The notes beneath the pieces were generated by a model that saw nothing but the letters and a program-made list of their open reading frames with translations, was not told where the DNA came from and ran no database searches. DNA of 35,870 bases from Bacteroidaceae bacterium (lineage in GTDB: Bacteria; Bacteroidota; Bacteroidia; Bacteroidales; Bacteroidaceae). The stretch is from contig JAILQO010000073.1 in NCBI GenBank assembly GCA_024698925.1, forward strand, positions 1 to 35,870, read 5' to 3'. The translations under genes and the position numbers were made by a program. Shown here piece by piece: positions 6,633 through 35,435 of this stretch (position 1 is its first letter; each line of letters begins with the position of its first letter).

Positions 6633-6995
6633 ATGTACACACTATTAGTTATTCTTGTGGTTCTTGCATCCATTTTCATGTGTCTCATCGTACTCATTCA
6701 GGAGTCCAAGGGAGGCGGTCTTGCCAGTGGCTTTGCCAGCGGCAATCAAGTGATGGGTGTGCGTAAGACCACCGATGTCATTGAGAAGCTCACTTGGGGC
6801 CTTGCAGCTGCAATGGTCGTCTTCAGCGTGGCATCTGTATTCTTCATTCCCTCAGCTGCTTCAGATGCTTCCGTGATGGAGGACATCGCTATCGAGCAGC
6901 AGGCTACGGCTCCCACGAACCTTCCCGGTATCCCCTCCGCTGACGTTCAGGAAGCTCCTGCCGCTGAGGCTCCTATCGAGGCTCCTGCACAATAA
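6633..6995 (+). CDS. secG: Preprotein translocase subunit SecG
   Basis: SecG is the small third subunit of the SecYEG inner-membrane channel and eases SecA-driven export. Two membrane helices are visible: residues about 2-22 (LLVILVVLASIFMCLIVLI) and about 53-73 (WGLAAAMVVFSVASVFFI). Between them is the family signature IQESKGGGLASGFASG. The C-terminal tail is Ala/Pro/Glu-rich (APAAEAPIEAPAQ), as is common in Bacteroidetes versions. The 120-residue length is typical. It starts 12 nt after the TPR gene. Confidence 0.95.
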   Translation: MYTLLVILVVLASIFMCLIVLIQESKGGGLASGFASGNQVMGVRKTTDVIEKLTWGLAAAMVVFSVASVFFIPSAASDASVMEDIAIEQQATAPTNLPGIPSADVQEAPAAEAPIEAPAQ

Positions 6996-7010
6996 TCACC
7001 TTTGCGCATC

Positions 7011-9101
7011 ATGCTCAGATACGGTATTCAGAAATTCGCCTTGACAGCCGTCATGGCCATGATAGCGCTGACCTCGCAGGCCAGCGCTTTCGTTTTACCT
7101 GCGCATCAGCGGGTCGATATCAACGTGAATCCTCAAGAGGCACGCGTGGTTACTACTGCTGTCTCGCTGCTGGAGTCCGACCTCCAGCGCGTTCTGGATG
7201 CTTCTGTCCGCATCGCCAAGGGCCGCTCGCAGATTCTCGTGGGAACATGGAATGGTCCGGCGCATGATGATTTGGCAGCTACTGGTGTTGACTGCTCGTG
7301 GCTGGAGGGCAACGCTCAGGCTTTCGTCCTCGCTGTAGCTCAGGATGGCCGTTTGGTGATAGCCGGTAGCGATGCTTATGGTACGGCTTATGGTATCATC
7401 GAGCTGACGCGTCTGCTTGGCGTTTCCGCTTGGGAGTGGTGGGCAGATGTCGATATTGAGCCCAAAAGTGAGTTCCGCCTCGACGAAGGTTTCCGAACGG
7501 AACAAGCACCCGATGTGTCGTTCCGCGGAATCTGTATAGGTGACGAAGACTGGGGACTGATGCCTTGGTCCGCGTCCAACTATGAGCCCAGCGCCGAAGG
7601 GCAGGTAGGAGCCCAGACCACCCAACGTATTTTTGAGTTGATGCTCCGTCTGCGCGCCAACATCTACTGGCCGCCCTCGCGTCCGTGTACGCGTCCTTTT
7701 GAACATACGGAGGGTTGTCGCACGCTGGCAGCCTACTATGGTATCACGCTTGGCAAGGACGTGCAGGAACCGATCTCCATCCCCAACTATCCCTCGCCGC
7801 TGATCTGTGAGGACGACGGCTTTGGCTATATCCGCCATTTCCCGACTTACGAGGAGAGTGGGCAATCACGAGGCTGTGGTGTTTATTATCACGCTTCCTA
7901 TCAGGGCGCCCCTCATGACTATCTGTGGCTGGGAACTGCCAGCCCCTTCCTGATGTGCCAACAGCTTACGGAGGCTTATCAGGCAGGCGCAAACCGCCTG
8001 TGGGTTCTGAATGTCGGCGACATCAAGCCTTTGGAGTACCAAATATCGCTCTTCACGGATATGGCCTGGAATCTGGAGGCTGTGCGTCAGCTGACCGTTG
8101 GTACACATCTCGAGGAATTCTATGCCCAGACCATTGGTCGCGATGTCGCACGTCTGACATCTGTGTATATGAAGGAGTTCTTTCAGCTTTCATTCCAATG
8201 CAAGCCGGAGCATCTGGCAGGTACACGTGTGGGCGAGCCTGGAGCTGAGTGGAATGCTGTGCGCGATTTGCCTTGGAGCGAGCAATTCATTCGTCATCGT
8301 CTGTCCCGCTACGACCTGATGCGTCGTAACGTGAAGTGGGTGGGAGACTCTGTGCGTCGCACGCATCCCCATCGCACGGATGCCTATTTTGAGTTGGTGG
8401 AATATCCCGTGATGTCGGCCGTTGCGCAGAATGAGAAGTATCTTTGTGCGCAGTTAGCCCGTCACGGAATCAGCTATCTCCAGCGCGACAACGTGGATTC
8501 CACGTGGATGCGGAGCGACCTTGGTCACAACCGCGTGCAGGAACTGACTATACGCTACAACGAATTACGTAATGGTAAATGGCGCGGGATGATGAGCTCC
8601 AATCCCAATAACCTCGCTGTATTCCAGCCTGTACCCCATATTCAGTCTGCGGCTCCGATGCCTGCGGATGAGCCTGCTATCGCAACCTTCTATGGTGCCA
8701 GCTATGATGCAGCTTCCTTCAGCGGAAGTTCTGTGCTGGCTCCTGTGTTGGGCTTGGGTGCCAGTATCCGTGCTATGCCCATTCCCCGTGGGCATGAGGT
8801 AACCTATCGCTTCAAACACAATTTCCTGAAGCAGCGCGTAGCTACGATTGAGCTCCGCATGTTGCCCACACACCCCATTGAGGAGTATCAGCGGATTCAG
8901 ATCTCGCTCGATGGCGGCGCTCCGCAGACCTTCATGTATGATACAGAGGTGGGTAGCGAGGCGTGGAAGCAGAATGTGACGCGTGGCTTTGCCGTTGTCA
9001 CATCGCGTCTCACCGTTGTGAAACCGATGGGAGACCATTCGCTCGTCGTGAAGGCGCTGGATGATGGCGTCGTGGTCGATGAGGTGTTTATCAGACCCTA
9101 A
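7011..9101 (+). CDS. GH115-like exported glycosidase, with an internal deletion relative to the family
   Basis: GH115 enzymes remove 4-O-methyl-glucuronic acid side chains from xylan. A Sec signal peptide is at about 1-27 (ALTAVMAMIALTSQASA). Typical GH115 segments follow: AWEWWADVDIEPKSEF, FRGICIGDEDWGLMPW, IFELMLRLRANIYWPP, GGVY-like CGVYYHASYQGAPHDYLWLG, and NVGDIKPLEYQISLFTDMAWN, then a C-terminal module ending GDHSLVVKALDDGVVVDEV. The start is ATG 7011; a TTG nine bases earlier is possible. Where family members have roughly 100 residues between the 'GIxxGxxxxEP' and 'LLLCDDNWG' segments, this protein goes directly from GITLGKDVQEP to SPLICEDDGFGY, so part of the active-site region may be missing. 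Total length (696) is also below the usual 800-950. It may be an altered or inactive member. Confidence 0.8.
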   Translation: MLRYGIQKFALTAVMAMIALTSQASAFVLPAHQRVDINVNPQEARVVTTAVSLLESDLQRVLDASVRIAKGRSQILVGTWNGPAHDDLAATGVDCSWLEGNAQAFVLAVAQDGRLVIAGSDAYGTAYGIIELTRLLGVSAWEWWADVDIEPKSEFRLDEGFRTEQAPDVSFRGICIGDEDWGLMPWSASNYEPSAEGQVGAQTTQRIFELMLRLRANIYWPPSRPCTRPFEHTEGCRTLAAYYGITLGKDVQEPISIPNYPSPLICEDDGFGYIRHFPTYEESGQSRGCGVYYHASYQGAPHDYLWLGTASPFLMCQQLTEAYQAGANRLWVLNVGDIKPLEYQISLFTDMAWNLEAVRQLTVGTHLEEFYAQTIGRDVARLTSVYMKEFFQLSFQCKPEHLAGTRVGEPGAEWNAVRDLPWSEQFIRHRLSRYDLMRRNVKWVGDSVRRTHPHRTDAYFELVEYPVMSAVAQNEKYLCAQLARHGISYLQRDNVDSTWMRSDLGHNRVQELTIRYNELRNGKWRGMMSSNPNNLAVFQPVPHIQSAAPMPADEPAIATFYGASYDAASFSGSSVLAPVLGLGASIRAMPIPRGHEVTYRFKHNFLKQRVATIELRMLPTHPIEEYQRIQISLDGGAPQTFMYDTEVGSEAWKQNVTRGFAVVTSRLTVVKPMGDHSLVVKALDDGVVVDEVFIRP

Positions 9102-9139
9102 TTGAATATTGATAATAGAAATAATTGTTCAGATAAATC

Positions 9140-10474
9140 ATGTTTGAAAATCTATCAGAACGCCTGGAACGATCCTTTAAGATTCTGAAGGGCGAAGGTA
9201 AGATCACAGAAATCAATGTCGCAGAGACACTCAAGGATGTGCGTCGTGCACTCCTCGATGCCGATGTGAACTATAAGGTCGCCAAGCAATTCACGGATAC
9301 CGTGAAGGAAAAGGCTTTGGGACAGAATGTGCTGACGGCTGTGAAGCCGCAGCAGATGATGGTCAAGATTGTCCACGACGAATTGGCCCTCCTCATGGGT
9401 GGCGAGACTGCCGAGTTGGCGTTGCAGAGTCATCCTGCTGTTATCCTCATGGCGGGCTTGAATGGCGCCGGTAAGACGACCTTTGCCGGTAAGCTGGCCA
9501 ACCTGCTGAAAAACAAACGCAATCGCAAGCCGTTGCTGGCTGCCTGTGACGTCTATCGTCCGGCTGCCGTAGAACAATTGCGTGTGTTGGGTGAGCAGAT
9601 TGGCGTGCCCGTCTATATGGAGCTTGATAATCAGGATCCCGTAAAGATTGCGCAGAACGCCATCATTGAGGCTAAGTCCCGTGGTTACGATACGGTGATT
9701 GTTGATACTGCCGGACGTCTGGCCATCGACGAGAAGCTGATGCAGGAGATTGCTGCTATCAAGGCTGCTATCAATCCTGATGAGACGCTTTTCGTTGTCG
9801 ACGCTATGACGGGTCAGGACGCCGTCAATACCGCTAAGGAATTTAACGACCGTCTGGACTATACAGGTGTCGTGCTGACCAAACTGGATGGCGATACTCG
9901 TGGTGGTGCAGCCCTCTCTATCCGCACGGTTGTTGACAAGCCCATCAAATATGTGGGAACGGGCGAGAAGATGGAAGCCATCGATCCCTTCCATCCTGCC
10001 CGTATGGCAGACCGTATTCTCGGTATGGGTGATATCGTCAGCCTTGTGGAGCGTGCTCAGGAGCAGTTCGACGAGGAAGAGGCACGCCGCCTGGAGAAGA
10101 AAATCCGCAAGAACCAGTTCGATTTCAATGACTTCTACGCCCAAATCCAGCAGATCAAGAAGATGGGTAACATCAAGGATCTCGCTTCGATGATTCCTGG
10201 CGTGGGCAAGGCCATGAAGGATATTGATATCGACGACGATGCCTTCAAGAGTATTGAGGCTATCATCCTCTCTATGACACCCAAGGAGCGCACACATCCA
10301 GAGTGTCTCAATACCAGCCGTCGCCAGCGTATTGCCCGTGGTTCAGGTACAGATATTGCTGCTGTGAATAGACTCATCAAACAGTTTGACCAGACGCGCA
10401 AGATGATGAAGATGGTTACCAATCCCAAAATGGCCCAGATGATGGCCAAAATGCCCAATTTACCCAAGAGATAA
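9140..10474 (+). CDS. ffh: Signal recognition particle GTPase Ffh
   Basis: Ffh binds 4.5S RNA and signal sequences on nascent chains and delivers ribosomes to FtsY and SecYEG. The N domain (1-95, [17 protein letters not shown]) is followed by the GTPase G domain with GLNGAGKTT at 106-114, DVYRPAA, DTAGRL and [14 protein letters not shown]. The M domain starts near 300 ([13 protein letters not shown]) and ends in a Met-rich stretch ([19 protein letters not shown]) used in signal-peptide binding. The 444-residue length is normal. The folD start follows the stop by 1 nt, giving tight coupling. The gene for 4.5S RNA is not seen in this window. Confidence 0.98.
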
Positions 10475-22914: not shown

Positions 22915-22940
22915 TGCTTACAAGGGGAGCATTTTATTTA
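22892..22940 (+). terminator. Intrinsic terminator overlapping the antitoxin stop
   Basis: GCTCCCCTTGTA pairs with TACAAGGGGAGC over 12 bp, followed by ATTTTATTT. The left arm lies inside the antitoxin coding sequence. Confidence 0.85.
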
Positions 22941-23123
22941 GTCCCACCCCTCATCATCATCATTTTTCATATACCGGCTCATGCCATTATCATCCCCATC
23001 GTCCTCTGATGCCGGGTCGAATCCACGCATATTATCACTTTCGTGATCACACACCATCTCCCCCACTCGACATTTACTCGCCGTGGATGCCTGTGGCGCG
23101 GCTTCCTCACTCCAGTCCTTCAA
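22938..23123 (-). pseudogene. Duplicated 3' end of the lipoprotein gene at 24481-24801
   Basis: The minus-strand frame ends NMRGFDPASEDDGDDNGMS, then RYMKNDDDEGWD and stop. This is nearly identical to the C-terminus of the lipoprotein encoded at 24481-24801. The first part of the frame is unrelated and has no signal peptide. It overlaps the end of the ATPase gene by 17 nt. It is best read as the leftover of a segmental duplication or of an insertion that carried the ATPase gene. Confidence 0.7.
22940..23036. repeat. 97-bp direct repeat, left copy, flanking the AAA ATPase gene
   Basis: This copy aligns with 24483-24579 without gaps, with only scattered substitutions. Both copies encode the same acidic peptide on the minus strand. 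Offset between the copies is 1,543 nt. Confidence 0.85.
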
Positions 23124-24315
23124 TCAGGAACCGTCTCAGATGAAGGTGAGTAATACCGTCAGAATCTTGTCTGCCTACGAGCGGGGTCATCGAAACGACA
23201 TATTTTGGATAGTTGTCCTTGATTGCCCGGAGATTGCTGAACTCTCGCTCCCTTGTGGCATCGTCAGCAATGATATATGATGCCTGAACATATATTCTCC
23301 GACCTTTGGGTTTGGTGCATACAAAATCAATCTCGCCAGCCTGAAGTTGTCCTACGGTCACCTCGTAGCCAAGGCGTATCAGGTGGTTATAGATGATGTT
23401 CTCTATTACCTTTTCGATGTCACCCTCACGCGAGCCACCAGCCAGCGTATTCCGCAAGCCGTTGTCCTCAAAGTAATACTTGTCGTTGCTCTCAAACAGC
23501 TTCTTGCCGTGAATATCATAGCGGTTCACCTTATGAAGTAAATAGGCATCGCACAGAAACTTCGTGTAGTTGATGATAGCCGTCGAGGTGACGCTGTTGC
23601 CCTGCGACTTCATAAACTTAGCAATGCTGTTGGCCGAGATGATCTTCCCTGCGTTGTCAGCCAGAAAACGCACGAGATTTTCAAGGAACGGCACGTTGCG
23701 GATCTTGTTCCTCATAATCACGTCCTTCAGTAGCACCGTATGGTACACGTCCGTCTGGTACTCACGCGCATCCTGTTCGTCAAGCCCCATCTTCACCAAC
23801 CCCGGCAGACCGCCGAACTGGATGTACTTAGCCAGCGTGTCGTCAGAATCCGTGAGCTGATGGAACAGCATAAACTCTTCGTAGCTCAGTGCCTGGATAT
23901 AGATCTCCTTGTAGCGTCCTCCTATTAGGGAACTCAAATCACTACTCAACATTTTTGAGTTTGACCCCGTAATAACCAGCTCAATATCAGGCTCCTCATA
24001 ATAGCTACGCACACTTTTCTCGAACTCCTCGATGTCCTGGATCTCGTCAACAAGGATGTAGTTTGTCTTTCCTCTGTCTCGTCTTTCATCGATATAGGCG
24101 TTCAAATCCTGATAGGTTTTAATATCGTCATACTCATGCTTCTCTTTATCGATGAAGATGATATTTGCACGCTCATCATTATTCACCCTGTCCCTAAAGA
24201 GGCGCAGGATATAACTCTTGCCTATACGTCGTTGACCAGTCAGAATGATGATGGTGTCCTGGCCAAGGTAGCGTTCAATTTTTTCCAGATAACTTTGTCT
24301 TAATATCGCATTCAT
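23107..24315 (-). CDS. AAA ATPase with DUF4143 domain
   Basis: The 402-residue protein has a P-loop GQRRIGKS at 27-34 and Walker B ILVDEIQ at 87-93, followed by ELVITGSNSKML and FEEFMLF-like segments. The middle and C-terminus have a winged-helix part (ENLVRFLADNAGKIISANSIAKFM) and a nuclease-like DUF4143 end (YEVTVGQLQAGEIDFVCTKPKGRRIYVQASY, with E-x-D and Y-V-Q). These ATPases are abundant and mobile in Bacteroidetes; their cellular role is not settled. The start 24315 is preferred over 24363. The promoter is bracketed by two identical palindromes, and the gene is bounded by 97-bp direct repeats. Confidence 0.88.
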   Translation of the reverse strand: MNAILRQSYLEKIERYLGQDTIIILTGQRRIGKSYILRLFRDRVNNDERANIIFIDKEKHEYDDIKTYQDLNAYIDERRDRGKTNYILVDEIQDIEEFEKSVRSYYEEPDIELVITGSNSKMLSSDLSSLIGGRYKEIYIQALSYEEFMLFHQLTDSDDTLAKYIQFGGLPGLVKMGLDEQDAREYQTDVYHTVLLKDVIMRNKIRNVPFLENLVRFLADNAGKIISANSIAKFMKSQGNSVTSTAIINYTKFLCDAYLLHKVNRYDIHGKKLFESNDKYYFEDNGLRNTLAGGSREGDIEKVIENIIYNHLIRLGYEVTVGQLQAGEIDFVCTKPKGRRIYVQASYIIADDATREREFSNLRAIKDNYPKYVVSMTPLVGRQDSDGITHLHLRRFLIEGLE

Positions 24316-24328
24316 AAACCTACATTTA

Positions 24329-24382
24329 TCTTTTATAAAAGAATTTTGGCGCAAATATACCACTTTTATCTTTTATAAAAGA
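24329..24382 (-). promoter_or_regulatory. AAA ATPase promoter with twin palindromic operators
   Basis: TCTTTTATAAAAGA, a perfect 14-bp palindrome, occurs at 24329-24342 and 24369-24382 (40 nt apart). Between them, on the minus strand, is TATATTTG (plus 24352-24359), a consensus -7 box. The upstream palindrome would cover the -33 region and the downstream one the 5' UTR, a classical arrangement for repression. Confidence 0.7.
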
Positions 24383-24445: not shown

Positions 24446-24481
24446 CATTATCCATTCTCCATTTTCCATTCTCAATTTTCC
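24446..24481. repeat. Polypurine repeat (inverted) downstream of the lipoprotein gene
   Basis: On the minus strand it reads GGAAAATTGAGAATGG and continues AAAATGGAGAATGG, the same subtype as the insert in rlmN (1673-1722). It begins at the stop codon of the lipoprotein gene. Confidence 0.7.
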
Positions 24482-24801
24482 TAGTCCCACCCCTCCTCAT
24501 CATCATTTTCCATATACCGGCTCATACCATTATCATCCGTATCGTCCTCTGATGCCGGATCAAATCCACGCATATTGTCATAGCTGCTAGAACTATGATA
24601 GCTCGATGACGAAGGACTTGAACTGACAGGAGCGGATGGTTTTTCTTCTACCTTAGGCGTTTCTTCCCTCACCTCAATTGTCCCATCTCCCTCTCCCACG
24701 TGAGAGGGCTGGGGAGAGGCTTCTATTTTGCTTTTTTTCGCCACATCGCCACATGCTGCGAATGTCAGCATGAGGAACAGTAATGTGATTGTCTGTTTCA
24801 T
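24481..24801 (-). CDS. Small acidic lipoprotein of unknown function
   Basis: From the ATG at 24801 the 106-residue product has a lipoprotein signal (MKQTITLLFLMLTFAA-C). A low-complexity Ser/Pro/Glu region follows, then a strongly acidic tail (ASEDDTDDNGMS, ENDDEEGWD). Residues around 33-43 (PQPSHVGEGDG) are encoded by a GC-rich palindrome (24689-24708) typical of dispersed elements, so part of the protein may derive from a repeat. The C-terminus is duplicated at 22938. I do not recognise the family. Confidence 0.65.
   Translation of the reverse strand: MKQTITLLFLMLTFAACGDVAKKSKIEASPQPSHVGEGDGTIEVREETPKVEEKPSAPVSSSPSSSSYHSSSSYDNMRGFDPASEDDTDDNGMSRYMENDDEEGWD
24483..24579. repeat. 97-bp direct repeat, right copy
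   Basis: This is the counterpart of 22940-23036. It is the 3' part of the intact lipoprotein gene. Confidence 0.85.
24689..24708. repeat. REP-like GC palindrome inside the lipoprotein gene
   Basis: CCCTCTC-ccacgt-GAGAGGG, flanked by further complementary CTCC/GGGGAGAGG sequence. It contrasts with the AT-rich surroundings and resembles palindromic repeats common between Bacteroidales genes. Confidence 0.5.
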
Positions 24802-24879: not shown

Positions 24880-25452
24880 TCAATGATTAGGTATAGTCAA
24901 ATCTCTGGGCCTGGCTTTTCTAAGCGCTTCGTTTATATCACTTGAGGCGCTTGAAATAGGAGTAAGTTCACCATACAACAAGGGGATGTCAAGCGCACCA
25001 TTAAGACTCAGTATTTCGCGTTCTAGTTTTTCGAAAGACACAATAGCGGCAGCATCGTTAGGCGAAATTAAATCCAATGTTTTTCTGTTTGCTGCTAGGA
25101 TAACAGCTTGCTGCATCCCTTCTATCTTACACACTTTTATGGCATCAAGAATATCTGACCCAAGACTCATTTGATGTCTGAATGTGACCCTTATCCACGT
25201 CTTGTTTTTGAAGAAATAACCGGCTTCTCCTGTCCAACCATTTAATGTAAAACGTCTAGTTATCACATCATTCAGATAGCGTTGCATACCTTTAGGTGCA
25301 GTACGTCCTGACTTCATCTTTGTTTCTCGTTCTGCGGCGAATAACACAGAGGCTTCCTTCCAAACATCATCCTTTAGCAGCTCTAGTGCCTCTGCCGTCT
25401 CATCCGTCATCTGGGCCTTTACCCAGGGGCTTGCCAATAGTCTAGTTCTCAT
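24880..25452 (-). CDS. Unknown protein, possible restriction-nuclease component (last gene of the defence operon)
   Basis: I cannot assign this 190-residue protein with confidence. It starts 5 nt after the helicase gene ends, so it belongs to the operon. The order GWTGEAGYFFKNKTWIRVTF, then SLGSDILDAIKVCKIEGMQQAVILAANRKTLDLI, then LNGALDIPLLYGEL resembles the layout of BglII/BamHI-like PD-(D/E)xK endonucleases: a strand, a helix after R/G-D-I/L, a buried strand, and a final I-P-L-L-x-G strand. The usual catalytic E-x-K on the central strand is not evident here (WIRVTFRHQ), so it could be a non-catalytic specificity protein or use another site. No homologue lies elsewhere in the window. Confidence 0.6.
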   Translation of the reverse strand: MRTRLLASPWVKAQMTDETAEALELLKDDVWKEASVLFAAERETKMKSGRTAPKGMQRYLNDVITRRFTLNGWTGEAGYFFKNKTWIRVTFRHQMSLGSDILDAIKVCKIEGMQQAVILAANRKTLDLISPNDAAAIVSFEKLEREILSLNGALDIPLLYGELTPISSASSDINEALRKARPRDLTIPNH

Positions 25453-25457
25453 TTTTA

Positions 25458-28400
25458 TCAGTATTTATCAATCCAGTAATTAGGTGCAGGCTCCAACTCA
25501 CATTCTAATGTATAAGACAAATCCAGATGCGTGCTATTTGGAAGCATTGCAGGATAACCTATTAAAACATCTTTATTATTTAGTGGCTCCTTCAAAATGA
25601 CTTTGGGGATGCTTGAGTGCTTCATCATCCTTATCTTGCCGTCCTCATTAACAGCAAAACAAGCAGGCCGTCCTAGAGAATCTTTCACCACAGTTAAAGA
25701 TTCATCATAACACGTAAAGTAATCCCAAACGCCAGATTTCAAAGAGACACTTTCAGCCATTCCGCTTTTCGATGTCAACTTGAATTGAATACCGTCAGAT
25801 GTTTCGAAAACTTTAATTATGCTTCCTAATTCTGTGTCAACTTGTTTGCAAAACTTCGAGATTATTTTCAGAAGTCGTTCTCTCATTGATTCGCTCTCCG
25901 TAACATTTCCTGATTGGCTCCAAAGTTCCTCCAATGCAGTAACCTGTCGTGAATTACGTATCTCAAGAAGTTCATCCAAGCCAAGATTTTCATTGTCATC
26001 ACCACTCATAATTGCCGCTCTTATCTTTTTTGCCACTACATCAGGAAACTCTCCAATAGCAAGATTGCTGTTCACAAGGCGTTTCTGAATTCTTTGGTAC
26101 ATTCGAGCTTCAATGCTATTAGGATACCATACATTATAGATGTCTACCTCTTCTGCAATCTGTCCTAGTCGTGCGACACGTCCGATTCTCTGTTCGAGCC
26201 TTGCAGGAGTCCAAGGAACGTCAACATTAATAAGAACTCTTGCTGCCTGTAGATTTAATCCTTCTGATGCAGCATCAGAACAGAACACAATTCTGATTTC
26301 TCCATCAAATAGTCCACGCTTCAAATCATTCTTATCACATTGTTGTTCTTTACCATTTGAAACAATACAAGACTTTGCGCCAGTATATAAACCGTATCTA
26401 AATCGTTTATTCAAGCCAAGAAGATTGAATTCTTCAAGAAGCGTATCAATAGTATCTGTATACCTAGAAAACATTAAGACCTTATCATCGTTTTCAAGGC
26501 ATTTTTTTGCAAGCTCAATAGACTCTCTAATCTTGAGATCATTATGGTTTTCCAATAATGAGTTTGCTCTTTTTAGAAGAGGATTTATTGCTGTTAATTC
26601 TAAGGCTATTGCTTGATCTAGCACTGAAGCATTAACTTTAGAGAAGTCTACATTAAACGTATCGTCATATCCTTCCTCCAATAGACCATCAAGTTCAAAG
26701 TCATCCAAAGTCGTAAGATTGTACTGCGCTCCTGATTTTGTATCAAGATAACGTGAGACCAATAGCTTTAGATTAGTTATCTTCTCCAAACGTCTTTCCA
26801 AACTTTTCTTACATGAGTAAAGGGAAGATGCGACTCTCTGCTGATAACTAACACGCACAAAACCAATGGAAATTTTTCTATCAGGGAAAAGGATTTCCTC
26901 TATAGAGAAACACCTTTCAGACAAATAGGAATTAACTTTGTCATAGAACAATTCGATTTCCATTGAGTTAGGAATAGGAATTGGGATTAGGTTGCGCTTA
27001 GGAAACTTGTAACCAATCTCAGTAAGTGAACGCCTTGTATTTCTAACTGTGAGCAAGTGGGCAGGATGTAACAGAACTAGCAACTGACGAATAGTTGGCC
27101 AATTTTTACGAGCAAAATCTCCGATAGCTGTAGTATCATTGTTTTCAAAAACACTTAGCTGAGATAATACATTCTTTTGGTCGTCATTTAATCTATCCAC
27201 AGAAGGTTTCATCTCTTCCATGGTCTTTAATATCATTGTCCTAGCATTATTCAATTCCGAAATACTTGGAGATTCTGAACAACCAATCATATCCAATGAT
27301 TTCATGTATACAAGATTCTTCTGCCATACTTTCGGCAAACCAAGAAGCTTAAGCAAAGAATGATATTCTCCAGGTTCTTTTTGCATTGGTGTAGCTGTAG
27401 CAAGTATCATGTGAGGAATCTTACTGGAAACACTCTCTAACATCGAGTACACTTGTGTCTTTTTTGTGCTTCCAGAAATATCTTTGCTTATCCTTGCAGA
27501 ATGTGCCTCGTCTAGAATTAGAAGCTCTGGTAAACGCGCACCTTCCTTTGAGAAAATGCTACCATTTTTACCAGAACCTCTAGCATATTGAGCAGACATT
27601 AAGATTATGTCTGGTGAACCGTTGCCTATCGGATTCTTGGAACCTACAAATCTCGTATTACCGAAATAATCTACAAAAGACTTGTTGCTGGAATCAAACC
27701 TCCAAACATTCAATTTAAAGTGCTCTTTCAGTTCATCTTGCCATTGTTTCAGTACTGACTTTGGCGTCAATATTAACACCCTCTTTACACCACAATATTT
27801 TACCATGAATGACATTGTAGCAGCAACTTCGAAGGTCTTTCCCAGGCCGACTTCATCAGAAAACAAAACTCTAACTGGCCATCTGGAAAGAGCGTCAATC
27901 ACGGCTCGCTCCTGATGAACATATAAAGCAGGTATGTCTCCTGAAACGAAGAAGTTGGACAGCATGTGTGAGGATATTTCAATGAGATTATTCTTTGAAG
28001 AATGATTCATCTTTGATGGCGTTTGGTAATATGTGCCTAATCCTTGTTTGATAATACCTGCAGTTTCTTCTGTGACATCCAAGGTTAGAGCATCTTCAAG
28101 TTCGTTGTTCCACAAAGAATCAAAGAACTTCTCCTGCACGGCAACTGCCTCAGGTTGTTCCCATGACTTTGCCACCATCACTTGTTCAAAGTTACCACCC
28201 AAGCCAAAACTTGTCTCATTGGGACTGCCTATGGCAACTATCTTATCGCTTTTTTCATCACTTAAAATTAGCGTCTTCGGATGAAAAATACCCTCCCCAA
28301 CGACATCAGCAGTCTTTATTTCTAGAAGATTGTCCTCTATCATCCAAGCAACTGTGGCAAGTCGTCTTTTTTCTAAGTTATCTGTTATTGATTCTATTCC

Positions 28401-28697
28401 TAATTTGAGGTTCTTTCTTATCTCAGCTATTTGATCCTCAAGATGTTTCTTTTTAGTAACAGCATCAAGGAATTCTCCAGGGAAACTATGGATGCCAATG
28501 ATTAATCGCATCTTTCCTTGCTTCTTATAGAGAGACTCGATACCTTGCGAAATCGCTAACAATGACTCAACCGTATAGAAGCTTGTAACTCTATCATAAT
28601 GGACACATGCGTCTATTGAAGGCAAGAGAAAACTCCTTAGAATATCACCGCCCTTACCAGCATAGCTAACTTGTATGTCAATATTTCTGAGTCCCAT
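25458..28697 (-). CDS. SNF2-family helicase with N-terminal phospholipase D-like nuclease domain
   Basis: The 1,079-residue protein joins a PLD-family domain to a superfamily 2 motor. PLD domain (about 10-200): H139-x-K141, D147 and GSPNET at 157-162, giving one HKD-type half-site, so a dimer would be needed for cleavage. The SNF2 core has GLGKT at 284-288, DEAH at 396-399, ATATP at about 433-437, SDAASEGLNLQAA and the arginine-finger motif QRIGRVARLGQ near 837-848. The C-terminal 200 residues are unassigned. The expected role is ATP-driven translocation on DNA coupled to nuclease action, as in other defence systems with SNF2 motors. It starts 2 nt after the 213-residue gene. Confidence 0.92.
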   Translation of the reverse strand: MGLRNIDIQVSYAGKGGDILRSFLLPSIDACVHYDRVTSFYTVESLLAISQGIESLYKKQGKMRLIIGIHSFPGEFLDAVTKKKHLEDQIAEIRKNLKLGIESITDNLEKRRLATVAWMIEDNLLEIKTADVVGEGIFHPKTLILSDEKSDKIVAIGSPNETSFGLGGNFEQVMVAKSWEQPEAVAVQEKFFDSLWNNELEDALTLDVTEETAGIIKQGLGTYYQTPSKMNHSSKNNLIEISSHMLSNFFVSGDIPALYVHQERAVIDALSRWPVRVLFSDEVGLGKTFEVAATMSFMVKYCGVKRVLILTPKSVLKQWQDELKEHFKLNVWRFDSSNKSFVDYFGNTRFVGSKNPIGNGSPDIILMSAQYARGSGKNGSIFSKEGARLPELLILDEAHSARISKDISGSTKKTQVYSMLESVSSKIPHMILATATPMQKEPGEYHSLLKLLGLPKVWQKNLVYMKSLDMIGCSESPSISELNNARTMILKTMEEMKPSVDRLNDDQKNVLSQLSVFENNDTTAIGDFARKNWPTIRQLLVLLHPAHLLTVRNTRRSLTEIGYKFPKRNLIPIPIPNSMEIELFYDKVNSYLSERCFSIEEILFPDRKISIGFVRVSYQQRVASSLYSCKKSLERRLEKITNLKLLVSRYLDTKSGAQYNLTTLDDFELDGLLEEGYDDTFNVDFSKVNASVLDQAIALELTAINPLLKRANSLLENHNDLKIRESIELAKKCLENDDKVLMFSRYTDTIDTLLEEFNLLGLNKRFRYGLYTGAKSCIVSNGKEQQCDKNDLKRGLFDGEIRIVFCSDAASEGLNLQAARVLINVDVPWTPARLEQRIGRVARLGQIAEEVDIYNVWYPNSIEARMYQRIQKRLVNSNLAIGEFPDVVAKKIRAAIMSGDDNENLGLDELLEIRNSRQVTALEELWSQSGNVTESESMRERLLKIISKFCKQVDTELGSIIKVFETSDGIQFKLTSKSGMAESVSLKSGVWDYFTCYDESLTVVKDSLGRPACFAVNEDGKIRMMKHSSIPKVILKEPLNNKDVLIGYPAMLPNSTHLDLSYTLECELEPAPNYWIDKY

Positions 28698-28699
28698 AA

Positions 28700-29341
28700 T
28701 TATCTTCCAATAGCATCTAACACTTTATCACACAACTCGCAATCTCCATCTATGCTATTACGTTGTATCACTTTGTTGTTAGCCAAGTCATTAAGTATAT
28801 TCTTTAGTGTTGCAATCTGTTTTTCACTTAAGACCCTACCACTTTTCTTTTGACCTGCAAAACTATTTAAGTATTTTAGTGAGTTCTGACTAACAGAGGT
28901 AAAGTTCTTGGCTTTTTTTGCCAAATCAAACAATTCGTTCCCTGTCAATTGAGCGATGAGTTGTTCTGGTGTTTTTCCTGCCACCTCGACCATTTGTTGA
29001 TATATGAATTCACACACAGATTCGCTACTAGCCTTTGATGCAGTTGATAAAGCTTCAAGAGCTTTCTTGATTTCTTCGTCATTACCGCTTGCCAACAAAA
29101 GCCAAATTGATTTAGGAGGATTAGCTTTTGATATTTCACGTATTATTTCTTCATCCAGGTTACTTAGCGATAAAAACACATCCAACTCTGCAGGAGTTAC
29201 TTTTATGTAATTCGCTGTAGATGCAAGATCCAGACCAACCGAATAAAACGACTCGGAAATCATGTTTATCTTTTCCTCAAGACTCAGGTTGTCATTTTCC
29301 CAAGCCTCTTTGATTAATTCTAATGCTTCAAATTTATTCAT
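28700..29341 (-). CDS. Unknown helical protein of the defence operon
   Basis: This is a 213-residue, all-helical-looking protein with no recognised family. The N-terminal part (ALELIKEAWENDNLSLEEKI, then SVGLDLASTANYIKVTPAELDVFLSLSNLDEE) looks like a helix-turn-helix-type segment. The middle is rich in Ala/Lys helices (EEIKKALEALSTASKA). The end (LSEKQIATLKNILNDLANNK, then DGDCELCDKVLDAIG) contains a C-x2-C pair. ATG 29341 is preferred to a longer frame reaching 29377 inside the MORC-like gene; it leaves 2 nt to the upstream stop and 2 nt to the next start, so it is translationally coupled between the MORC-like ATPase and the helicase. That position suggests an adaptor or DNA-recognition subunit (inference). 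Confidence 0.75.
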   Translation of the reverse strand: MNKFEALELIKEAWENDNLSLEEKINMISESFYSVGLDLASTANYIKVTPAELDVFLSLSNLDEEIIREISKANPPKSIWLLLASGNDEEIKKALEALSTASKASSESVCEFIYQQMVEVAGKTPEQLIAQLTGNELFDLAKKAKNFTSVSQNSLKYLNSFAGQKKSGRVLSEKQIATLKNILNDLANNKVIQRNSIDGDCELCDKVLDAIGR

Positions 29342-29343
29342 GG

Positions 29344-30819
29344 CTACTTCATTGATTCTGTTCGTTGTGAAACCCATTCATTCCTGATAGTCAATGCTTT
29401 TCTGGAATCAATATTTAATTCAACTACAAGAGTTCGATAGATGGCATCAGATGTAGCTATAATTTTGCGTACCTCGTTGTCTATCTTTTTACGCCAAAGC
29501 GGATGATTCTTATATACGAGAACTTGCAACTCCAAAGGATCCTGCATCACATCGAAAATATAATCATAAGGTCCTACATCATGGCCGTCTTCCTCTTTCT
29601 CGACGAAAGTAATATGTATTTCCGTTTCATCTTCCAGAATAAGCGATCTCTCCGACACAATGTTTTTCACCGTATCATTGATGCTTGAGATTTTGGGTGG
29701 TTTATTATCAGAGTCACTCGTGCTGTTTGAAGAAATGCCATCGGCTATATCTTCAACAACATAATCATTGGCCAACTTTTCGATAATTGCCTTGCGTTCT
29801 GCAGGTTTGTCGATATTATGGGCTCTACTTATATTACGAGAAGCAGAAACAACACCTGCGAGAAATTCCCTCATATAAACTTTAACGTAATCCCAATCCT
29901 CAGATTTTTGCACACCTTGTTTGTAAAAAGTTGCATCAAGAAAATCCATGTTTACTTCTCCGACAATACGACTCGTCATCAAGTGGGCAGTAAACCAAGA
30001 CTTGTCATGTGTAAGAACAAGTTGGCCTTTTCGATAGATATTGAAACCATAAAAAGTATCATTATGTACTTTAGAATCAAGAGCTACCCATCCTGTTATG
30101 TGATATTTACCATTAGTTCCAAACCTTTCGTCAATTAATACTTTAGTACCTTTAATAAGGTTGTAAGTTGAAGGTTGTGCTGGATAGCGACCTGACTCAT
30201 CAATAACAGTTATTGTATCACCACTCTCAATGTGTCCTTTAAAGGCATTGCCCATGTATTCCAATACTGCACTTACAGGGATTTTGTCTTCTTTAAATTT
30301 ATAATGCAACTTTTTGATAACGAAAGCAGTACCATGTGAAGCTGTCTTTAATGGTGAACTCGCCTTTGGCATACTATCCTCAATAATAATATCCCAAGCA
30401 TCAGAACCTGACGGGCGCTTACCATATTCCGCAATGTCAAAAGCTGTATGATACTCTACATTTTCGCCAAAAGGTCTAGTGTATATTTCGAAATAATTGC
30501 CTAAAGTAGAGCATGATGTTTTAAATCCCATTCCAAAATGGCCTTTTGCTCCTTCGCCTCTTTCTAGATACCTTGACATATCCTCTGCAATACACACAGC
30601 TTTCTCCAGTATCTCAGATGTCATTCCCTTTCCATTATCAAGGACAACGATTTGATCGCCCCTAAAATCAATAGAAATATTTAGCTTTTCACCATTCAAT
30701 CTGGCATCAAAACTATTTGCGACAAGCTCTCCAATCGCTTCTTGTGCATTTTGGTTCGTAGCACCTATCGTCTCCATCAATCGAGGAGAGGGGTAGTTTT
30801 TGACAACTCTTTTTCCCAT
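29344..30819 (-). CDS. MORC/paraMORC-like GHKL ATPase
   Basis: The 491-residue protein carries a full GHKL (gyrase, Hsp90, histidine kinase, MutL) ATP site: N box E31-LVA-N35-SF-D38, G1 box D61-NGKG, G2 box GAKGHFGMGFK at about 90-100, and a later HGTAFVIKKL. An S5-type segment follows, and the C-terminus (YDYIFDVMQDPLELQVLVYKNHPLWRKKI) is a family-specific extension. Such proteins were grouped as prokaryotic MORCs and paraMORCs by Iyer, Abhiman and Aravind (2008), who tied them to restriction-modification operons with helicases and nucleases. They are thought to clamp or remodel DNA on ATP binding. It lies 42 nt downstream of the methyltransferase gene. Alternative: an Hsp90-like chaperone, less likely given its neighbours. 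Confidence 0.9.
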   Translation of the reverse strand: MGKRVVKNYPSPRLMETIGATNQNAQEAIGELVANSFDARLNGEKLNISIDFRGDQIVVLDNGKGMTSEILEKAVCIAEDMSRYLERGEGAKGHFGMGFKTSCSTLGNYFEIYTRPFGENVEYHTAFDIAEYGKRPSGSDAWDIIIEDSMPKASSPLKTASHGTAFVIKKLHYKFKEDKIPVSAVLEYMGNAFKGHIESGDTITVIDESGRYPAQPSTYNLIKGTKVLIDERFGTNGKYHITGWVALDSKVHNDTFYGFNIYRKGQLVLTHDKSWFTAHLMTSRIVGEVNMDFLDATFYKQGVQKSEDWDYVKVYMREFLAGVVSASRNISRAHNIDKPAERKAIIEKLANDYVVEDIADGISSNSTSDSDNKPPKISSINDTVKNIVSERSLILEDETEIHITFVEKEEDGHDVGPYDYIFDVMQDPLELQVLVYKNHPLWRKKIDNEVRKIIATSDAIYRTLVVELNIDSRKALTIRNEWVSQRTESMK

Positions 30820-30861
30820 TTTTATTTAGGTTTTAAGTTTTCATTTTAGGTAAATTCTATG

Positions 30862-32583
30862 TTAGTCCTTAAAGATTCTCCCTAACAAAGTGTCTTTATA
30901 CCAATACTTTGTCAGAGACAACCTTTCATAATCAGGCAAGCTTTCTAGATATTCCAGTTCGAAGACTAAACGAGGCTCTTCATCTTTCGATTTTGGATGA
31001 ATCTCTGCCTTATTTCCAATTCGAGCCACACGAATTAGATACAAATCACGTATTCCTTTCTCCTTTATATACGGCATGAAATAGTAGAGCTTGTTGATTG
31101 CAACAGTTGACGGGAATGACTTTGTCTTGCCTGTATAATATATCTTCGTTGGCTCTTCATTCAAGAAATAATCCTCGTTGTCTTTCTTCACCAAGCCAAT
31201 CAGCAAGTGCTTGGCTTTATCCAAGGTGTATTGCTTCTTTGGACAATTTACAACAAGAATTTTCTCTTCGTCAGCAAAAAGCCTAAGGTCTAACATTGGA
31301 TTGGCGTCACGAGTCGTAAAGATGGGCTTCGATGAAACTGGTGCCTCGTCGTAAATGAACTGATAAAGACTCTTGCCAATCTGCTCAACGATACCACAAA
31401 CCAACGCATTACCCATCAAGAAAGCACGTCTGCCATCTGATACATCAGGATGAAGAGTATGGTTGTCTGGGAACATGTTCATGCGTTCCAACTCAATAGG
31501 AAGCAAACGACGATAGCGGCCTGATTTTGTCTTTACCACATGTTTGAAACGAGAAGGAGATGCACCACCTTCGCCTGTAATAATCGTGCGTGAAGGTTGG
31601 TCAAGATAGTCAGGGAAGGCCATACCTCCCTCAGAGAACATATACTTGTAGCCCTCCTTGGAAACTCGTTCTATCTTCTTGGCACCTTTCTCGTATTTCC
31701 ATTTGGGTAGTTCTTCTTCTGAAATAAAGAAATCCTCTGGAACCAGTTTTTCGTCAATCAGATTGCCGCCAAGCGTCTGACGTGGTCCATCATAAACAGG
31801 GTCAGCATCAACGGAGTAGATATGGCGATTCATCATCATGCCAGCGTTGCCAAATGGACTTTCTTTCTTGCCTTTATTGAAGCCGTCAGAAACCTCTTTG
31901 ATAGTACCCTCGATGTCGAATCTAGAAACTGTTTTGTCTTTTGGCCTGAACTCAAAAGCCTTTGCCATAACGCCATCAAATTCTACCCAATCTTCCATCT
32001 TCTCAATCTTCTTGGCAACAACGGAATCCTTTTGATAGCCCACTATGTAAGTTCTGCGTCTGCGCTGCGGCATACCATAATCGGCTGCGTTGATGATGCG
32101 CCATTCAACTACATAGCCCAAATCTGCCAACGACGCAAGAATGATTGCAAAGTCACGTCCTCGCTGGGTCGCGGGAGAATTAAGCAAACGGTCAACGTTC
32201 TCAAAGAAAATATACTGAGGGCGCTTGTCGCCTTTCTCCAGAAGGATGCGATGAATCTGCCACCATAGCACACCTTTCTTGCCCTCGATGCCACCAGAAC
32301 GACTTAATGATGCAGCCACAGAGTAGTCCTGACAAGGAAAGCCACCAACCAACAAATCATGATCCGGTATGTCAGTTGTCGGAACGACGTTTATATCTTT
32401 ATTGCAATGTCCTTTCCTCCCAAAGCGGGCTTGATATACTAATGAAGCGTCCTGATGCTGTGTTGATGGCTCCCACTGATTGCTCCAAACTGTCTCGTAT
32501 GAATCAGAAGCGCCTTCAAGTCCGATGCGGAAACCTCCCACACCAGCAAATAGTTCTACTACACGTATATTTTTCTTTGTCAT
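30862..32583 (-). CDS. DNA (cytosine-5) methyltransferase, Dcm type, with C-terminal extension
   Basis: The protein methylates C5 of cytosine in a specific site, probably protecting host DNA from the downstream genes. Motif I is FAGVGGFRIG (12-20), motif IV GGFPCQDYS with catalytic C84, motif VI ENV (128-130), motif VIII QRRRR (173-177), then a long target-recognition region (about 190-330), RTIITGEGGASP as motif IX and MGNALVCGIVEQIG as motif X. About 150 residues after motif X (from about 420) form an extra domain I cannot assign. The start ATG 32583 follows AAGG at a good distance; a GTG at 32604 is in frame but lies at the foot of the terminator hairpin. It is the first gene of the operon. 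Target sequence is not predictable from the protein. Confidence 0.95.
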   Translation of the reverse strand: MTKKNIRVVELFAGVGGFRIGLEGASDSYETVWSNQWEPSTQHQDASLVYQARFGRKGHCNKDINVVPTTDIPDHDLLVGGFPCQDYSVAASLSRSGGIEGKKGVLWWQIHRILLEKGDKRPQYIFFENVDRLLNSPATQRGRDFAIILASLADLGYVVEWRIINAADYGMPQRRRRTYIVGYQKDSVVAKKIEKMEDWVEFDGVMAKAFEFRPKDKTVSRFDIEGTIKEVSDGFNKGKKESPFGNAGMMMNRHIYSVDADPVYDGPRQTLGGNLIDEKLVPEDFFISEEELPKWKYEKGAKKIERVSKEGYKYMFSEGGMAFPDYLDQPSRTIITGEGGASPSRFKHVVKTKSGRYRRLLPIELERMNMFPDNHTLHPDVSDGRRAFLMGNALVCGIVEQIGKSLYQFIYDEAPVSSKPIFTTRDANPMLDLRLFADEEKILVVNCPKKQYTLDKAKHLLIGLVKKDNEDYFLNEEPTKIYYTGKTKSFPSTVAINKLYYFMPYIKEKGIRDLYLIRVARIGNKAEIHPKSKDEEPRLVFELEYLESLPDYERLSLTKYWYKDTLLGRIFKD

Positions 32584-32605
32584 ATCCTTGATTGGTGGGG
32601 CCACG

Positions 32606-33370: not shown

Positions 33371-34387
33371 TTATGTTGTAATTACTTGATCTAATTCTTT
33401 AATGATTTCCCAATGACCTGTTTTGTCGGAGCCCATGCGGCGGATGTAATCGCGGCCTTGGAGAGCTTTGATAGTTCGGGCAATAGTGGGACGAGAAAGA
33501 TGGCAGTAAGCGGCCAACTTCTCGTAAGAATAATCCGGAAACGAACTGATTGCTGCATATACTGTTTGCTCTGTCTTTGATAGCGCTGAAGCATCCACTT
33601 TTACAGTATCATTTACAGTATCATTTACAGTATCACTGTCTTCCCGCATCAGCCTAAGCAGGTCGAGCTGGGTGGCTATCACACGGCTGGCTATAAAGTC
33701 GGTAAAGACCTCTGGGCGCGTATGGGCCGCCTCTAACGAATAGATGTATTCGTGGCGCAGGATAGCAGGAATGATGGCGATGGTAAAGCCATTGCGCAGC
33801 AGGGCGAGATTCATCAACAGACGGGCTACACGCCCGTTGCCATCCACAAAGGGATGGATAAAAACGAAACGCTGATGCAGGGTGGCTGCCAGTTCTACAG
33901 GGTGCAGTCTATGCTCGTTCTCATTGTACCACCCTATGAGTTTCTGTATCTCGGCGGGAATCTTGGATACTGCCGAGACTGAATAGCGGCTGCCACTGAT
34001 ATACACTTTTACATCACGGTATTTCCCAGCTTTCTCGGCATCTATCTGCTGATAGAACAGGCGATGAAGGGCTAAAATGTCCTCTTCTGTCAGACTTTCC
34101 TTTTCGGTAATCTGGTAGATATAATCATAAGCCTTGGCATGCCCGACTGCCTCGTAATGATCGCGCAGGGGTTTTCCCTCTATCGTCAGTCCGTCTTCTA
34201 TCACTACCTTGGTCTCCGACTCTGTCAGGCTGTTGCCCTCAAGGGCGTTGCTCGTATAGGTTAGCCCCACACGATAGTATTCGCGTAATGACTTCAGCGT
34301 TTCGGGCGGCAGAGGTCTGTAGGCTGACAGCAAACGGTTGTTCTCGTCGGCTTTTTTATATTTATCAGCTAATGCAAACATTGTCAT
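33371..34387 (-). CDS. Fic-domain protein with N-terminal inhibitory motif and winged helix
   Basis: Fic enzymes transfer AMP (or other nucleotides) to target proteins. The core motif HPFVDGNGRVAR is at 178-189. The inhibitory S-x3-E-G/N motif is SNALEGN at 46-52, so it is a class II Fic with an N-terminal inhibitory helix. The C-terminus (about 285-335) is a winged helix (YSYEKLAAYCHLSRPTIARTIKAL), suggesting DNA binding or autoregulation. Between the two is a threefold DTVN repeat encoded by a 12-nt tandem repeat. Start 34387 is taken because the promoter at 34401-34431 excludes the longer frame to 34552. It is bounded by 108-bp direct repeats. Confidence 0.92.
   Translation of the reverse strand: MTMFALADKYKKADENNRLLSAYRPLPPETLKSLREYYRVGLTYTSNALEGNSLTESETKVVIEDGLTIEGKPLRDHYEAVGHAKAYDYIYQITEKESLTEEDILALHRLFYQQIDAEKAGKYRDVKVYISGSRYSVSAVSKIPAEIQKLIGWYNENEHRLHPVELAATLHQRFVFIHPFVDGNGRVARLLMNLALLRNGFTIAIIPAILRHEYIYSLEAAHTRPEVFTDFIASRVIATQLDLLRLMREDSDTVNDTVNDTVKVDASALSKTEQTVYAAISSFPDYSYEKLAAYCHLSRPTIARTIKALQGRDYIRRMGSDKTGHWEIIKELDQVITT
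33598..33635. repeat. Threefold 12-nt tandem repeat inside fic
   Basis: TTTACAGTATCA is repeated about three times in phase and encodes VNDT units in the linker before the winged helix. Copy number may vary without a frameshift. Confidence 0.75.
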
Positions 34388-34400
34388 CTCAATCACGCTG

Positions 34401-34431
34401 CAAATATAGCGATTTATCCCGTTCGCACAAA
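34401..34431 (-). promoter_or_regulatory. Promoter of fic
   Basis: Minus strand: TTTG (plus 34428-34431), 19-nt spacer, TATATTTG (plus 34401-34408), 13 nt before the ATG. Confidence 0.75.
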
Positions 34432-34529
34432 GGAAATGGGTAAAAAAAGAAAAAGTTGGAACCAAAAAACGATAACGATGACGATAATTGTCTGCAAAAA
34501 AAGCTCCGCCATTCTCGCGAACAGCGGAG
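34422..34529. repeat. 108-bp direct repeat, right copy
   Basis: This is the counterpart of 33183-33290, at an offset of 1,239 nt. Confidence 0.85.
34496..34529 (-). terminator. Intrinsic terminator of the Bro-N/Fic gene
   Basis: Minus strand: CTCCGC/GCGGAG stem followed by a T run, the same hairpin as at 33257-33291. Confidence 0.85.
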
Positions 34530-34556
34530 TCACTATAAACAAAAAATATCACTTCA

Positions 34557-35435
34557 TCAGCTATCCTCCTGCTCGTAATAGTAGGAATAGTCGATGCCCT
34601 TCATGAAGATTTCGCGATCGTCAATGCGGTCTGTCATTGCTCCTTGGAGTAACGACTTGATAGCATGAACATCCGTCGTACTCAGCTTCATTGCTGCCAG
34701 ATACTCTTTTTTGTCTATCTTACTCCAATCGACACAAAGCTTAAGCTGCTTCTTGAAAATCAAGTCAAGCCAGATGCGCGTTGAGCGACCATTCCCTTCC
34801 ATAAAGGGATGAGCCACATTCATCTCCACATATTTATCTACTATCTCATCGAAAGTGCTTTCTGGCATATCTTCGATAATCCTCAAATTCTGCATCAGAT
34901 ATTCTGCGCGACAGAACAGAGTACCATCTTTCCAAATAGTTTTAGTGCGTATTTTGCCAGCAAAATCATATAGTCCACCAAAGATATATGCGTGTATCTG
35001 TTGCAGGCACTCAACGGTTCCAGGCTTCATGCTGTCAAGCAAGCCGCTCTCGATAAGGGTATAGGCTTTCTTCTTACTCTGTCCGTCAATAGTATTATCA
35101 CTGTAAACAAACCAGTTAAGAAAAGGCATGGAACGATTACTAGGATAGTTCATAGCCATTGTCTTTACACTCTCTGCGTCAATCACATCAGCAAAGCGTT
35201 GTTTGCCATCGGGAGCCTCGAATTTGAAGTGGTTAGTGACACTAACCAGTTGAATTCCTTCCTTAGCCATCTTACCTTTTAGGTACTTCCAATAGTTACG
35301 GCATTTCTTATAGTCCTCCTCATTGTTGATGGCACGCACGATGTCTGTAGCCGAGAACCACCACTTGCTATGTTCCTCGTCCCAAACGGCTCGCACCTCG
35401 CGGTCGTTGAAAAAACGTATCGACTTCTTGCTCAT
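34557..35435 (-). CDS. Bro-N/Fic fusion protein
   Basis: The 292-residue protein starts with a Bro-N-type domain (about 5-110): REVRAVWDEEHSKWWFSATDIVRAIN, then a C-terminal part of that domain with DAESVKTMAM. Bro-N is known from phage antirepressors and baculovirus DNA-binding proteins. The C-terminal half is a Fic domain: IFGGLYDFAGKIRT at 151-164 and the core HPFMEGNGRSTR at 209-220. An inhibitory S-x3-E-G/N motif is not obvious, so it may be inactive, unregulated or regulated by the Bro-N part. Probably a stress or defence toxin; the target is unknown. It ends in front of a terminator and has a -7 box upstream. Confidence 0.88.
   Translation of the reverse strand: MSKKSIRFFNDREVRAVWDEEHSKWWFSATDIVRAINNEEDYKKCRNYWKYLKGKMAKEGIQLVSVTNHFKFEAPDGKQRFADVIDAESVKTMAMNYPSNRSMPFLNWFVYSDNTIDGQSKKKAYTLIESGLLDSMKPGTVECLQQIHAYIFGGLYDFAGKIRTKTIWKDGTLFCRAEYLMQNLRIIEDMPESTFDEIVDKYVEMNVAHPFMEGNGRSTRIWLDLIFKKQLKLCVDWSKIDKKEYLAAMKLSTTDVHAIKSLLQGAMTDRIDDREIFMKGIDYSYYYEQEDS

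Follow-up and report, generated by a model that had tools for sequence, protein, structure and literature searches.

The restriction systems CglI and NgoAVII cut DNA with a nuclease of the PLD type, and their R protein carries its own B3-like DNA-binding domain. In the portions of the literature that describe them (PMC4267653, PMC5737866), both combine a methyltransferase and a helicase-like ATPase with cutting that depends on nucleoside triphosphates, and CglI reads GCCGC. A second group of relevant systems, prokaryotic operons that unite a MORC ATPase with a SWI2/SNF2 protein, was treated by Iyer, Abhiman and Aravind in 2008 (PMC2292703); the first-pass annotation of the DNA analyzed here had invoked their prediction of restriction operons built on a MORC ATPase and a helicase, and the part of the paper that deals with MORC operons does describe such operons. 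Here we present a five-gene operon of a Bacteroidaceae bacterium (GenBank assembly GCA_024698925.1, contig JAILQO010000073.1, positions 1 to 35,870; this whole stretch of 35,870 nucleotides (nt) is hereafter the window). With somewhat more belief than doubt, we interpret it as a restriction-modification system that depends on ATP: a dead BglII-fold protein would read unmethylated GATC-containing sites, a PLD-SNF2 protein would cut, and a Dcm methylase would protect.

In the operons of the 2008 account (PMC2292703, Introduction), a GHKL-S5 ATPase, a superfamily 2 (SF2) helicase, a cytosine methylase and a nuclease also stand together, but the SNF2-containing ones often encode HNH or EcoRII-like nucleases and HKD domains are described on a few Rad25-like helicases, whereas the window operon has a PLD domain fused to SNF2, a ParB-type and a dead BglII-fold protein, and a glutamine in place of the signature arginine of the ATPase. 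CglI and NgoAVII have methyltransferase, helicase-like ATPase and mode of cutting in common with the window; however, their nuclease is a separate R protein rather than a fusion to SNF2, and their descriptions (PMC4267653 and PMC5737866, relevant portions) contain neither a MORC nor a ParB-type protein.

Results

Five open reading frames occupy 24880-32583 of the window as a single minus-strand run, with intergenic gaps of 42, 2, 2 and 5 nt when the start of gene 3 is taken as 29341; all were found as the first-pass annotation had claimed. A longer start would extend gene 3 to 225 amino acids (aa), giving a 34-nt overlap with the ATPase gene, and an alternative GTG start is possible for dcm at 32604. 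The genes and their key motifs are as follows (the 13 loci are the related loci described below):

30862-32583, minus strand: gene 1, dcm, C5-cytosine DNA methyltransferase (PF00145, 206.5 bits; ATG start)
29344-30819, minus strand: gene 2, MORC-like GHKL-S5 ATPase (HATPase_c_3, 6e-16; Morc6_S5, 26.9 bits against a cut-off of 26.2)
28700-29341, minus strand: gene 3, all-helical protein of 213 aa with a ParB/Noc/KorB-type DNA-binding domain and without a CTPase domain (predicted fold)
25458-28697, minus strand: gene 4, PLD nuclease fused to an SNF2 translocase (SNF2-rel_dom, 1.7e-16; Helicase_C, 1.2e-17; PLDc_2, 1.2e-4, below cut-off)
28185-28283, minus strand: PLD active-site stretch HPK..D..GSPNET..NFE, residues 139-171 (pattern in the window and 13/13 loci)
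27834-27857, minus strand: Walker A motif DEVGLGKT, residues 281-288, with K287 (window and 13/13 loci)
24880-25452, minus strand: gene 5, predicted to be a site reader (pseudo-nuclease) of BglII/BstYI/BamHI fold whose active site is substituted
25171-25218, minus strand: gene 5 hairpin YFFKNKTWIRVTFRHQ, residues 79-94, in the place of the catalytic D..E-x-Q/E of active enzymes

Pfam, PADLOC and NCBIfam assigned the Dcm, the GHKL ATPase and the PLD-SNF2 protein and yielded no convincing family for genes 3 and 5; in PADLOC-DB 2.0, gene 5 had no match and gene 3 a single one (E 0.026). The domain hits and intact motifs bear out the earlier proposal of a restriction-modification-like operon with a Dcm, a MORC-like ATPase and a PLD-SNF2 protein. 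Among the residues singled out at that time, C84 of PCQ and D61 of DNGKG stand, and the Walker lysine is K287, not K288. Genes 3 and 5 had been called unplaceable, which remains accurate as regards family profiles and has been overtaken in that both are now placed by predicted fold.

The search for relatives used as bait a gene 5 alignment of 42 rows, of which 41 came from the 120 relatives listed out of 372 matches and one from the window, and as target 84,980 species genomes. Sixty-two stretches fit the pattern, and 13 encode a relative; in 13/13 of these loci, a count conditional on gene 5 as bait, the ATPase, gene 3, PLD-SNF2 and gene 5 keep their order and strand. Because genes 2-5 recur in this manner, they are not grouped by chance. 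Identity to the window was 34-75% for the ATPase, 30-71% for gene 3, 35-79% for PLD-SNF2 and 44-86% for gene 5, and by record the hosts span at least three phyla, Bacteroidota, Bacillota and Actinomycetota (the host names of L015 and L016 are doubtful). The co-occurrence of all five genes that the first-pass annotation had foreseen was also found, with a Dcm of one subfamily in the fetched flank of each of the 13 loci. Four arrangements were seen: upstream on the same strand in six loci (L007, L008, L009, L011, L013, L014), upstream on the opposite strand in three (L004-L006), downstream on the same strand in two (L010, L012) and downstream on the opposite strand in two (L015, L016).

The system is thinly distributed. 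Gene 3 as bait matched 1/393 genomes of the order and 1/301 and 1/65 genomes of two families, each time only the centre genome; the ATPase gave a full-length match in 1/299 genomes (again the centre genome) and four more partial matches. On plasmids, the sole match to gene 3 was in the archaeon Haladaptatus (NZ_CP120471.1; L043/L044), where genes 2-4 lie directly upstream of genes matching DrmA, DrmB and DrmC models, with a related Dcm and a Sau3AI-family gene about 10 kb away. Because this plasmid has genes 2-4 and no detected gene 5, genes 2-4 are a core that can be without gene 5. Carriage by phages or viruses was considered and rejected: no relative was confirmed when IMG/VR was scanned with gene 3 and the ATPase, and INPHARED contained one partial ATPase match (25% coverage) and three Dcm matches. 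Of these three, the best Dcm record (L058, 13.9 kb) showed no other gene of the five in a tblastn search. No description of the five-gene set was recognized in the open-licence PMC literature, which is not proof of absence.

The predicted fold of gene 5 is of the BglII/BstYI/BamHI type, that of family PF09195, and PF09195 is precomputed on 9 of 120 gene 5 relatives among the matches listed. R88 occurs in 121/121 sequences, and K82, R88, T90, R92, H93 and Q94 are invariant in 14/14 wider rows. When gene 5 is aligned with BglII-type enzymes, R88 and T90 fall in the E-x-Q/E columns and the D column is a gap beside Y79; an invariant R-x-T replaces the catalytic E-x-Q/E, and the usual nuclease residues are absent from the aligned hairpin. 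The first-pass annotation had suggested a possible nuclease; more probably the protein is no nuclease and has a BglII-type fold in which other residues take the catalytic positions, and for that reason an ordinary nuclease was rejected as the best reading. Because these columns are replaced, the PLD domain is the likely nuclease of the system and gene 5 the likely site reader. One could instead envision gene 5 as an active nuclease whose active site has been rebuilt from other conserved residues, giving an operon with two nucleases, which would suit both its predicted restriction-enzyme fold and the finding that the altered hairpin and next helix are among its best conserved parts (K82, R88, R92, H93, D100 and D103 are invariant). 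However, the hairpin has no invariant acid, its sole acid (E76) varies, being mostly E, D, G or Q, and the PLD domain already provides an intact nuclease motif, so we consider a rebuilt active site unlikely and retain gene 5 as a putative reader.

An alignment of 12 PLD-SNF2 proteins, one from the window and the others from 11 of the 13 loci, shows H139, K141, D147, N160, E161, N169 and E171 to be invariant and the PLD motifs (HxK, D147, GSxNET and N.E) to be conserved, as are Walker A, DEAH and motif VI. H139 and K141 form the HxK, and D147 lies one residue beyond canonical HKD spacing, which puts the aspartate one residue nearer. A pattern check of 14 proteins (the window and all 13 loci) recovered these motifs as well, motif VI being missing only in L004, where the gene (6762-9990) is broken into two frames; it is whole in the other 12 loci. 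Pfam detects one PLD half per chain, and two chains would therefore have to pair for a cut, as other PLD nucleases are known to do. The protein scored 305 bits against NF042964 (cut-off 1100) and matched the PADLOC models PbeA (1.2e-50) and DrmD (2.2e-45). Its identification as DrmD, BrxH, DpdE or PLD_Helicase was rejected, these being shared-domain matches, with the NCBIfam ones under their cut-offs.

By sequence, the closest solved structure to the ATPase is human MORC3 (E 6.9e-7), and the GHKL ATP-binding motifs, which are conserved, and the S5 domain that mark the MORC family are present. The S5 signature of the family, GhXhhpXXRhl (Iyer, Abhiman and Aravind 2008; PMC2292703), is incomplete: the window has GFNIYRKGQLV, with Q266 at the arginine position, invariant in 15/15 aligned ATPases, and for this reason we call the protein MORC-like. 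Gene 3 is predicted from its fold to carry a DNA-binding domain of the ParB/Noc type at about residues 10-134; the protein (213-225 aa) is all helical, with no N-terminal CTPase (ParB/Srx) domain and no Pfam ParB match.

A comparable gene set is found on plasmids. In Lactiplantibacillus plantarum (L067, 3564-10341, and L068), a single run of genes encodes a PLD-SNF2 protein together with a MutH/Sau3AI-like protein and one that bears the name ParB/RepB/Spo0J; a Dcm gene is divergent from this run, and a Vsr gene is near. The set of a Priestia plasmid (L069, 8260-13763) is similar, with a MutH-like gene that is on the opposite strand and encodes about 285 further residues behind its domain, and a ParB-like protein named by its 35% identity to that of L. 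plantarum. Both plasmid systems combine a related Dcm, a ParB-like protein, PLD-SNF2 and a protein built on a degenerate Sau3AI C-terminal domain, and no description of this sister system was found in the literature. A PLD-SNF2 protein accompanies a dead GATC-type enzyme in two branches, and no other observation speaks as strongly as this parallel for the reader role of gene 5, which we infer by analogy. A broader idea, which we offer tentatively and stop just short of favoring, is that one class of ATP-dependent restriction system turned dead GATC enzymes into readers for PLD-SNF2 at least twice, from a BglII fold in the MORC branch and from a Sau3AI C-terminal domain in the ParB branch (Lactiplantibacillus/Priestia), with a ParB-type protein and a cytosine methylase of the GATC type present in each branch. 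The Pm_ATP protein of Priestia (L069) is a GHKL protein; it was rejected as the same gene as the MORC-like ATPase, having matched only 1/5 MORC-like queries in BLASTP (E 2e-5). On a Psychrobacillus plasmid (L052, 691-3760), a BglII/BstYI-family gene, a separate PLD protein and a related Dcm adjoin one another, possibly a simpler relative.

The window Dcm is intact, with PCQ at C84, as expected of the methyltransferase of a restriction-modification system. It has a C-terminal extension of about 150 aa (30862-31317) without a Pfam match, found among the 13 loci only in L008 and L014 (L002 served as outgroup). At E 1e-30, 23 plasmid records hold a relative of this Dcm, and all 23 neighborhoods were inspected, mostly 2.5-3 kb on either side. 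A Sau3AI- or BglII/BstYI-family gene is nearby in 17/23, a count made without a control set of unrelated Dcms: Sau3AI/MutH-family in 15 (H7, H9, H10, H12, H13, H14, H16, H17, H19, H21, H22, H23 and H25-H27; the H17 assignment is by Pfam, and the H26 protein, annotated hypothetical, is identical to that of H27) and BglII/BstYI-family in two (H18, H28). Sau3AI reads GATC. For the BglII/BstYI superfamily, the sites typically recognized are AGATCT or RGATCY, both built around GATC (PMC10287943, in its treatment of this superfamily). Because relatives of the window Dcm lie near such genes in 17 of the 23 records, GATC is the predicted target, and we think it fairly probable that the mark is GAT(5mC), 5mC being 5-methylcytosine.

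In a tree of 34 Dcms (14 of the system, 18 that represent 17 of the 23 plasmid records, and two outgroups with very long branches; system rows were cut at 440 residues, except L012, taken from residue 81), a branch (81/87) separates the 14 system Dcms from the Sau3AI-linked Dcms, among which the two ParB/SNF2-linked ones nest. H6, where no GATC gene was seen, falls with the system Dcms. Over the target-recognition region (residues 205-365, limits set by us), the window Dcm is 33-39% identical to 12 Sau3AI-partnered Dcms, 37-48% to ten more distant system Dcms, 72-89% to L007, L008 and L014, and 18% and 28% to the two outgroups, and K309, R313, G318, E325, G326, P337, R339 and T340 are invariant in 32/32 Dcms. 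The differing position and strand of the Dcm in the four arrangements, along with the Haladaptatus plasmid, where genes 2-4 adjoin DrmABC-like genes and the Dcm is far off beside the Sau3AI-family gene, would fit a view in which the five genes are not one machine, genes 2-5 forming a stand-alone defence module and the Dcm a separate guard or travelling orphan methylase. This seems improbable to us given that a Dcm of the same subfamily is in the fetched flank of 13/13 loci and that these Dcms share one side of the branch; a single restriction-modification system remains our preferred reading.

The surroundings had been described as defence-like, and they are: two adjacent Fic genes lie at 33371-35435, the second with a Bro-N domain ahead of it (below the Pfam cut-off), and an AAA_14/DUF4143 gene lies at 23107-24363. 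On both sides of the latter is a 108-nt direct repeat (22930-23037 and 24473-24580, 89% identity), and ORFs spanning both copies share a similar acidic C-terminal peptide (DNMRGFDPASEDD..). Fic genes among the neighbors could hint at a modification-dependent or abortive system, in which detection of phage DNA or of a block in replication would lead the complex to kill the cell, with methylation tuning the system; PLD-SF2 nucleases can be modification-dependent, as in SauUSI, which also counts in favor. SauUSI is ATP-dependent (PMC7913695). Nevertheless, a constant Dcm partner better suits protection of self, and no toxin-like domain is among the Pfam, PADLOC and NCBIfam matches of genes 2-5, making this the least probable of the alternatives to a GATC-reading restriction-modification system.

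Discussion

A number of observations weigh against the reading proposed here. For gene 5, the structural model has a pLDDT of 73.6, is weak in places and matched nothing in Foldseek below E 0.001, and an attempt to prove BglII kinship from sequence alone failed: PDB sequence searches gave 0 matches, hhalign against PF09195 members a probability of at most 1.9, and hidden Markov model scores over 134 family members a best of 9.8 bits and a median of 4.3 (shuffled or reversed maximum, 4.8). PF09195 matched neither gene 5 in the Pfam scan nor the window genome, and a rescan of seven gene 5 relatives gave one match, at 12.1 bits against a cut-off of 26. With sequence support thus weak, the kinship would derive from the predicted fold and from BLASTP to two neighbour-chosen proteins. 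Gene 5 as bait had no match on plasmids, none being detected beside the Haladaptatus genes 2-4 either, and the L. plantarum "ParB" protein owes its name to the record, with no Pfam ParB match. As to GATC, there is no control set for Sau3AI-family genes beside unrelated Dcms; in 3/17 records (H12, H26, H27), the gene is of the degenerate kind and 4-5 kb away, so that a wider stretch was needed (H12 also has a second Dcm, which adjoins a Sau3AI-family gene); and in 6/23 (H6, H8, H11, H15, H20, H24) no GATC-type gene was seen, the fetched stretches of H15, H20 and H24 ending at the record edge. The window Dcm is 30% identical to BglII-partnered H18 over the target-recognition region and, because the system Dcms sit on their own side of the branch, their specificity could have shifted relative to the Sau3AI-linked Dcms.

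If the reading holds, gene 5, as a dimer, and gene 3 would dock on DNA, with gene 5 reading unmethylated GATC-containing sites, and the MORC-like ATPase would close as a clamp that holds or loops the DNA. Reading by gene 5 would switch on the PLD-SNF2 motor-nuclease, its SNF2 domain would translocate, and the PLD domains of two motors would pair so that both strands are cut. Self DNA would be kept safe by the Dcm, which would methylate these same sites and leave 5-methylcytosine as the mark, as its neighbors suggest.

The part of the 2008 MORC-restriction proposal that concerns these operons (PMC2292703) gives no predicted target for them; the neighborhood evidence here points to GATC and 5-methylcytosine, and both formerly unplaced proteins receive testable roles. 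If a dead restriction enzyme does serve as the reader, it would clearly illustrate how a site-specific nuclease can become a sensor. The MORC clamp idea is an open question in eukaryotic gene silencing, and an operon of about 7.7 kb could allow it to be tested on DNA with one known site.

Parts of this operon are familiar from other systems. PbeABCD and CxC have the fusion of an HKD nuclease to an SF2 helicase in common with it (PbeA profile, 1.2e-50), although the ABC ATPase and DndE of CxC, as described in the relevant part of PMC10853773, were not found among the five genes. The SNF2 part resembles DrmD of DISARM (2.2e-45), and the Haladaptatus genes 2-4 adjoin DrmABC-like genes; however, the five genes contain no DrmB (DUF1998) and no separate DrmC match, and their sole SF2 protein matches DrmD and PLD_Helicase models better than DrmA. 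MZA shares a GHKL ATPase, the window protein being a weak match to the MzaB profile (E 0.0017), and the BglII/BstYI/BamHI enzymes have their fold in common with that predicted for gene 5, in which the catalytic residues are replaced. In overall operation, the system would resemble CglI/NgoAVII or a type III enzyme. The window operon shares parts with MORC operons, PbeABCD, DISARM and MZA and misses a defining feature of each; its composition is new, whereas the kind of system, ATP-dependent restriction-modification, is already known.
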